Below, one piece after another: positions 45,355 through 45,936 of a DNA stretch of 64,000 nucleotides. How positions within the stretch are numbered: the first letter of the stretch is position 1; each line of letters begins with the position of its first letter. A program made the position numbers and the translations under genes. Location: NCBI RefSeq assembly GCF_002946835.1, contig NZ_CP026652.1, forward strand, positions 1,054,001-1,118,000, read 5' to 3'. The DNA comes from Streptomyces dengpaensis (GTDB lineage Bacteria; Actinomycetota; Actinomycetes; Streptomycetales; Streptomycetaceae). The notes under the pieces were generated by a model. It searched no databases and was not told the DNA's origin. It saw only the letters and a program-made list of their open reading frames with translations.

Positions 45355-45936
45355 TTGAGTGCTGGGCGCTCGGGAGAGATGGGGCTTCACGGATGGACAA
45401 GGTGGTCGTCACGGCCCGACGCCTCCCTCGCCGCGATGGCGAAGCTCAGGCCGTCCTTCCGCACCGAGGGAGGCACGGTCACCGCGGGCAACGCCTCCCC
45501 GCTCAACGACGGCGCGGCCGCCCTGCTCCTGGTCGACGAGGAGGGCCTCAAGGCCACCGGCCGCGAGGCCCTCGCCCGGATCAGCGCGACCGGCGTCTCC
45601 GCCATCGACCCGCACTACTTCGGCCTCGCCCCCGTCGAGGCCGTGAACCGGGCACTCGCCAAGGCAGGCAAGGGATTTGACGCACTGTCAACACTAGAAC
45701 TGAACGAGGCCTTCGCCGCCCAGGTACTCGGCTGCGTCGCCGAATGGCCCGAGTTCGACCCCGCGATCCTCAACCCGCAGGGCGGAGCCATCGCGCTCGG
45801 CCACCCCCTCGGCGCGTCCGGCGCCCGGCTCGCCGGAACCGTCGCCCACCAACTCGCCCGCGAGGGCTCCGGAGTTGGTGTCGCCACCCTCTGCATCGGT
45901 GTGGGCCAGGGCCTCGCCCTCGTCCTCGAACGATAG
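45355..45936 (+). pseudogene. Fusion scar: pcaI start joined to the C-terminal half of pcaF
   Basis: From 45393 the frame ATG GAC AAG GTG GTC reads MDKVV, the expected start of PcaI (3-oxoadipate CoA-transferase alpha). Within about ten codons the sequence becomes, in another frame, the second half of PcaF (3-oxoadipyl-CoA thiolase): RPDASLAAMAKLRPSF, TAGNASPLNDGAA, LNEAFAAQ, IALGHPLGASG and CIGVGQG, with the normal PcaF stop. The acyl-accepting Cys half, all of pcaJ and nearly all of pcaI are missing. An in-frame start (TTG 45355 or ATG 45379) could still give a truncated, inactive thiolase fragment. Confidence 0.85.

Follow-up and report, generated by a model that had tools for sequence, protein, structure and literature searches.

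The window, a stretch of 64,000 nucleotides of the Streptomyces dengpaensis genome (contig NZ_CP026652.1), contains a protocatechuate (pca) operon in which pcaH, pcaG, pcaB and pcaL stand in order behind a divergently oriented pcaV. The operon holds no intact pcaI, pcaJ or pcaF: seven codons of pcaI and about 172 codons of pcaF are left, and nothing of pcaJ. The locus is organized as follows:

44681..45145, minus strand: pcaV, MarR-family repressor of the pca operon, intact (solved PcaV 4FHT, E 2.6e-86)
45146..45392, no strand: pcaV-pcaI intergenic region with putative PcaV operator/promoter blocks, retained (alignment with 16 relatives and motif scan)
45207-45222: conserved intergenic block, GTGTACTGAACGATAC
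45338-45353: conserved intergenic block, TCAGTGCCCTGACTAA
45393..45415, plus strand: pcaI remnant of 7 codons and 2 bases (alignment with relatives)
45393..45680, plus strand: post-deletion frame beginning at the pcaI start codon, 95 codons, TGA stop
45415..45416, no strand: deletion junction, 2,082-2,094 bp gone, comprising the rest of pcaI, the whole of pcaJ and pcaF codons 1 to about 228
45416..45936, plus strand: pcaF 3' remnant, uninterrupted as far as the native stop, thiolase N-terminal domain mostly gone
45947..46723, plus strand: pcaH, protocatechuate 3,4-dioxygenase beta, intact (TIGR02422, 357 bits, cut-off 296.4)
46720..47283, plus strand: pcaG, protocatechuate 3,4-dioxygenase alpha, intact, start taken from the ATGA overlap (TIGR02423, 141.7 bits, cut-off 126.25)
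47313..48626, plus strand: pcaB, 3-carboxy-cis,cis-muconate cycloisomerase, intact, start approximate (TIGR02426, 417.4 bits, cut-off 355.75)
48659..49813, plus strand: pcaL, fused 3-oxoadipate enol-lactonase / 4-carboxymuconolactone decarboxylase, intact, start approximate (NF051488, 531.1 bits, cut-off 390)

All four retained enzymes score above their NCBIfam cut-offs; a nitrosuccinate lyase model gives PcaB a higher score still (538.9 bits), which falls short of the 650 bits that this model requires. PcaV matches the solved protein (4FHT/4G9Y) over its full length (residues 1-152) and keeps five of the seven ligand-pocket residues named in PMC6882365 (H9, H21, W25, Y38, I110, M113 and N114): H9, H21, W25, M113 and N114 are present, with F at position 38 and T at position 110. 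The same source places a PcaV operator at pcaI, which together with sequence conservation suggests an operator role for the two intergenic blocks. The frame 43262-44428 and pcaV converge, and between their ends lies a dispersed element of ~170 bp (~44505-44691) that extends into the final pcaV codons. Five further copies with 93-99% identity (119-180 bp matched) are found in the same genome, and the element, a candidate MITE- or REP-like repeat, is partly self-complementary (71% inverted match, two copies).

The ATG at 45393 opens the PcaI start MDKVVVTAR, after which the sequence continues into the 3' part of pcaF in a different frame. Alignment of the DNA to the related genome G024 (89% identity) maps positions 45415 and 45416 to bases 2,085 bp apart and puts the join at codon 228 of pcaF as numbered in G024; to the right of the join the alignment extends over 1,862 bases with zero gaps. 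Seven close relatives give a missing length of 2,082-2,094 bp, and in these relatives pcaF codon 236 lies 2,128-2,140 bp away from the pcaI start, vs 46 bp in the window. Microhomology of 0-2 bp at the junction is possible, as read by eye. The deletion removes the front 57% of pcaF, and at the corresponding place intact pcaIJF is found in 31 of 50 and in 80 of 137 related operons. Comparison of the window with its relatives confirms the deletion of pcaI, pcaJ and the front of pcaF as genuine. The first-pass annotation had described a PcaI start followed by the out-of-frame second half of PcaF, one clean deletion and an otherwise intact pcaV and pcaHGBL, and had called for comparison with close relatives. 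The sequence and the alignment bear out this description, with one single gap and ~2.1 kb of pcaI-pcaJ-pcaF present in the relatives and absent here. It also correctly concluded that the operon by itself stops at 3-oxoadipate, the CoA-transferase genes being gone and the thiolase truncated. Its statement that half of pcaF is lost holds as regards the truncation and is refined to a kept part of ~172 of 400 codons. The interval that it gave, 45355-45936, does hold the event; its limits are those of a mechanical open reading frame starting at TTG and crossing the junction, which itself lies at 45415/45416.

A CoA-transferase search of the strain's own genome returned six matches, which form three pairs. 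Two of these pairs belong to further sets of pcaI, pcaJ and pcaF (~C1:1317180-1319754 and C1:3742576-3745243). A genome-wide search for additional copies had been proposed in the first-pass annotation, and these two sets support its suggestion that paralogues elsewhere complete the pathway, the best-fitting of the three readings that it offered. The third pair (C1:6546433-6548003) adjoins a frame that by eye resembles an enoyl-CoA hydratase. The first of the two spare sets, referred to as type B, is a pcaF-pcaI-pcaJ cluster divergent from a LysR gene, whose product has an unnamed LysR regulator (7W06) as its top match, with BenM second and CatM lower. In the second set, the order is pcaI-pcaJ-pcaF, preceded by a gene resembling flavin monooxygenases and one frame of 643 residues; the first half of this frame resembles maleylacetate reductases (3W5S, E 1.1e-107) and the second half hydroxyquinol 1,2-dioxygenase (1TMX, E 2.9e-80). 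We note that this apparent reductase/dioxygenase fusion lies at C1:3747053-3748984 (L038:9054-10985). The hydroxyquinol pathway yields 3-oxoadipate, and the pcaIJF of this cluster should therefore act on 3-oxoadipate.

PcaI and PcaJ of both spare sets exceed the cut-offs of TIGR02429 (128.5 bits) and TIGR02428 (243.55 bits), two models that span a wider 3-oxoacid family, with 236.8 and 325.8 bits for the hydroxyquinol-cluster set and 356.6 and 256.2 bits for type B. Neither thiolase reaches the PcaF model TIGR02430 (cut-off 597), the scores being 483.9 bits for the hydroxyquinol cluster and 414.9 bits for type B; both have their best E-value with the 3-oxoadipyl-CoA thiolase model NF006551, yet remain below its cut-off. 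Because both lie below the PcaF equivalog cut-off, we infer their substrate: gene context supports a predicted role in 3-oxoadipyl-CoA cleavage, and the spare enzymes probably act on 3-oxoadipate derived from protocatechuate. The F, I and J proteins of type B share 65-70% identity with pcaFIJ from within five pca operons of Arthrobacter/Pseudarthrobacter (L108, L112, L114, L121 and L131), vs 39-58% between the Streptomyces operon-type F/I/J and the same five operons. In three operons of other genera (L106, L109 and L122), pca-operon I and J are 65-76% identical to the Streptomyces operon type and 41-52% to type B. Both types thus have relatives within pca operons. We detected no PcaV-like operator near either spare set at up to three mismatches to two specified motifs, in a scan that covered L038, L268, L144, L141, L142, L145, L270, L271 and L272, which leaves induction of the spare sets by protocatechuate unexplained.

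We determined the state of the operon across the genus in two samples. The first derives from 80 examined pca loci, 30 of which were omitted because pcaV was out of reach or <71% identical; the resulting 50 operons comprise 31 intact operons, 12 without pcaF only, and 7 without pcaI, pcaJ and working pcaF, a state that we call triple loss. On a tree of these 50 operons (PcaH, G, B, L and V), 13 state changes are required, 6 of them for triple loss, and the sister of the window is the intact operon of G056 (support 97). The second sample is an even draw of 295 Streptomyces genomes, many of them drafts, from which 113 further operon regions were retrieved. A PcaV match at E <= 1e-55 was present in 152 genomes, and 137 were kept at E <= 9.8e-67; the 15 weaker matches were dropped, and a few of these, too, show 71-72% identity. 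These 137 PcaV-type operons divide into 80 intact, 25 with pcaF-only loss, 31 with triple loss and 1 other (G210), where triple loss was assigned by script in 28 cases and by hand in 3 (G183, G219 and G150) that keep short pcaI or pcaF fragments and that the script had classed as 'other'. Triple loss needs 17 changes on the 137-operon tree, 16 of them on starred branches, and the smallest well supported group around the window consists of the window and 7 intact operons. The scars differ as well: all 7 triple-loss operons of the 50-operon set retain some or all of the pcaV-pcaI region, the other six deletions end in the final pcaF codons or past pcaF, and the pcaF piece of the window is the longest by far. 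The same exit genes have been lost many separate times in Streptomyces.

Loss of pcaF alone requires 18 changes on the 137-operon tree and leaves pcaI and pcaJ in place, with graded pcaF scars; examples are L045 and L050 in the draw and L054, L059 and L066 in the 50-operon set. Where only pcaF is lost, a general thiolase perhaps takes over. At four loci (L064, L075, L149 and that of G210, L182), a gene only 28-30% identical to pcaJ stands where pcaI/pcaJ would be expected, and I and J seem to have been replaced there by another kind of CoA-transferase. G049 carries a second pcaI and pcaF outside its operon (G049:C1:76916-79520) with 90% and 85% identity to the G024 operon genes. A search of annotated plasmids yielded partial matches only, and its two best matches, both Streptomyces megaplasmids, had seemed unannotated but were rejected as further losses since complete pcaIJF is present. 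These plasmids (L133 and L134, of Streptomyces sp. NBC_01340 and NBC_01450) are linear, typed as mobilizable, and have no close pcaH in the 10.5 kb retrieved; spare exit sets may travel on linear plasmids of this kind.

Triple loss is associated with the presence of type B. In the 50 genomes, type B is found in 7/7 triple-loss, 10/31 intact and 3/12 pcaF-only cases (Fisher 0.0015 for triple loss vs intact); the independent-pairs test on this sample is non-significant alone (3.9 same, 0.0 opposite, median p 0.125). Across the 137 operons, in whose draw type B was scored on the best 8-13 candidates per genome, it accompanies 25/31 triple-loss vs 15/80 intact operons (Fisher 2e-9), and after removal of the discovery genomes and 7 duplicates, 20/26 vs 10/61 (Fisher 1.1e-7). 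For the nine genomes that have type B both in this scoring and in a scoring of all candidates, the best matches agree. A spare pcaI of any type is present in 31/31 triple-loss vs 45/80 intact genomes (Fisher 7e-7), and for 10 of these 31 triple-loss genomes type B is the sole spare pcaI found at the thresholds used. Type B is missing from six triple-loss genomes (G327, G081, G212, G069, G068 and G045), which group in a single region of the tree; each carries a type-A pcaI elsewhere, and with the 25 that have type B they account for all 31. Conversely, 15 of the 80 intact genomes carry type B yet retain their own pcaIJF. Two related explanations were considered and rejected: (i) extra type-A pcaI is non-significant as an explanation of the losses (21/31 vs 39/80, p 0.09; these counts include some partial matches and leave out the 25 pcaF-only genomes of the draw), and (ii) pcaF-only loss does not follow the same rule (type B in 4/25 vs 15/80 intact, p 1.0). 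The association between type B and triple loss is correlative; that redundancy, and not another correlate, causes the repeated loss is what we infer from it.

An alternative reading would trace this association to shared descent or to another trait of the lineages, so that type B is no backup and lineages that gain catabolic genes may simply also lose them. The triple-loss label is indeed less scattered on the 137-operon tree than in any of 500 shuffles. Against this stands the independent-pairs test, which is designed to remove shared ancestry: of 15 pairs on the 137-operon tree, 9.6 differ in the same direction, 0.0 in the opposite direction and 5.4 show no difference (sign test, median p 0.002, range 0.0005-0.016). 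Genome size as a hidden cause was likewise rejected, as the medians of triple-loss and intact genomes are alike (9.3 vs 9.6 Mb, p 0.27) and the association is present both in the smaller-genome half (12/18 vs 4/38, p 3e-5) and in the larger-genome half (13/13 vs 11/42, p 2e-6). A lineage effect is further at odds with the non-significant result for extra type-A pcaI and with the lack of a type-B association for pcaF-only loss, and we regard it as unlikely.

Adaptive truncation, in which 3-oxoadipate or a derivative is the end product and is exported or put to other use, had been offered in the first-pass annotation. Such a reading would fit the retention of promoter and pcaHGBL alongside loss of the exit genes, here and in 31/137 operons, and since the spare sets of the strain lack a PcaV-like site, pathway flux could halt at 3-oxoadipate when protocatechuate is the inducer. 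A strain for which 3-oxoadipate is the desired product should need no spare exit genes, and a spare pcaI is present in each of the 31 triple-loss genomes; the proposal finds no support and appears quite improbable.

Loss of the 2 kb in read assembly, perhaps by confusion with a paralogous pcaIJF, would be compatible with a clean join in one assembly. The assembly, of 8.71 Mb in total, consists of only three contigs, the one with the window spanning 8.54 Mb. The longest word common to the surroundings of both breakpoints (within 60 bp, in seven relatives) measures 6-7 bp, at places that do not match, and the type-A pcaF paralogue is only 73% identical in DNA over 461 matched bases. Other junctions remove the same genes in many other assemblies, and together these findings make an assembly collapse very improbable.

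The remnant of pcaF bears on the age of the event. Profile searches match 45427-45933 to Thiolase_N positions 225-260 of 260 only and to Thiolase_C positions 3-123 of 123, so that the remnant falls short of a complete Thiolase_N plus Thiolase_C; the pcaF model covers it at 233-399 of 400. Its dN/dS is 0.158 vs the sister L135, within the range of 0.115-0.186 obtained for the six pairs of four intact relatives, from which we conclude that the loss in the window is probably young. With the other three relatives, dN/dS ranges from 0.136 to 0.195, one value exceeding the intact range, and since 6 silent and 4 replacing changes are private to the remnant, the age is only roughly bounded. That the remnant encodes a functional short protein, as its frame, open up to the native stop, and its still low dN/dS might suggest, is hardly credible given that most of the thiolase N-terminal domain is missing, that the mechanical frame holding it has a TTG start that precedes the ATG of pcaI, and that low dN/dS is the expectation for a recent loss.

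We consider it likely that a fairly recent illegitimate deletion of ~2.1 kb, with the exit steps supplied in trans and with repeated excision allowed by a spare set, accounts for what is observed: a deletion flanked by intact genes, two spare sets, recurrence across the genus and an association with type B. The illegitimate event would have taken pcaI, pcaJ and the front of pcaF and left promoter/operator and pcaHGBL in place. The final two steps, from 3-oxoadipate to 3-oxoadipyl-CoA and on to succinyl-CoA and acetyl-CoA, would be supplied in this genome by type B and by the pcaIJF of the hydroxyquinol cluster. Possession of a spare exit set would free the pcaIJF of the operon from selection, with promoter and pcaHGBL remaining selected, and random deletions sparing the latter would survive; the repeated excision of pcaIJF in Streptomyces would stem from this release of the operon copy. 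A more general proposal, which we advance tentatively and at slightly less than even confidence, is that gain of a LysR-controlled pcaFIJ uncouples the exit of the pathway from protocatechuate control, after which independent deletions strip pcaIJF from the PcaV operon and leave the ring-cleavage genes and some or all of the promoter region untouched. As the spare sets have no PcaV-like site nearby, trimmed strains may run two regulatory stages, the second induced by 3-oxoadipate or by upstream muconate and not by protocatechuate.

A seemingly broken operon would be an instance of convergence replicated many times over, and such convergence serves as a natural experiment on when a gene within a regulated operon turns dispensable. 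For annotation, an incomplete Streptomyces pca operon should not be equated with an incomplete pathway. The proposal predicts which strains place protocatechuate catabolism under split control, of use for the conversion of lignin-derived aromatics and for the production of 3-oxoadipate. Among the matches listed in a literature search that covered few subscription papers, we found no prior description of pcaIJF loss in Streptomyces, nor of such repeated excision of an exit module for the beta-ketoadipate pathway.

In S. coelicolor, the pca genes are arranged as pcaIJFHGBL. The window shares with the PcaV-controlled Streptomyces pcaIJFHGBL operon the regulator, the operator region, and the order and orientation of pcaV, pcaH, pcaG, pcaB and pcaL; unlike that operon, it lacks pcaI, pcaJ and 57% of pcaF, so that the operon by itself ends at 3-oxoadipate. 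The second spare set resembles hydroxyquinol/resorcinol pathway clusters, in which maleylacetate reductase, hydroxyquinol 1,2-dioxygenase and a flavin monooxygenase-like gene likewise occur together, here preceding the spare pcaIJF, with the difference that reductase and dioxygenase are fused in this genome. For type B, the nearest context-supported relatives found are the F-I-J genes of the pcaHGBLFIJ operons of Arthrobacter/Pseudarthrobacter, where they lie inside the pca operon, whereas in the window's genome they form a separate cluster divergent from a LysR gene. In redundancy-permitted gene loss, a gene becomes dispensable once a second copy supplies its function, and the operon of the window has likewise lost genes whose function a second copy is predicted to supply. 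What goes beyond this general case is that a contiguous exit module has been cut out of a regulated operon, repeatedly and in independent events, with the downstream genes kept.
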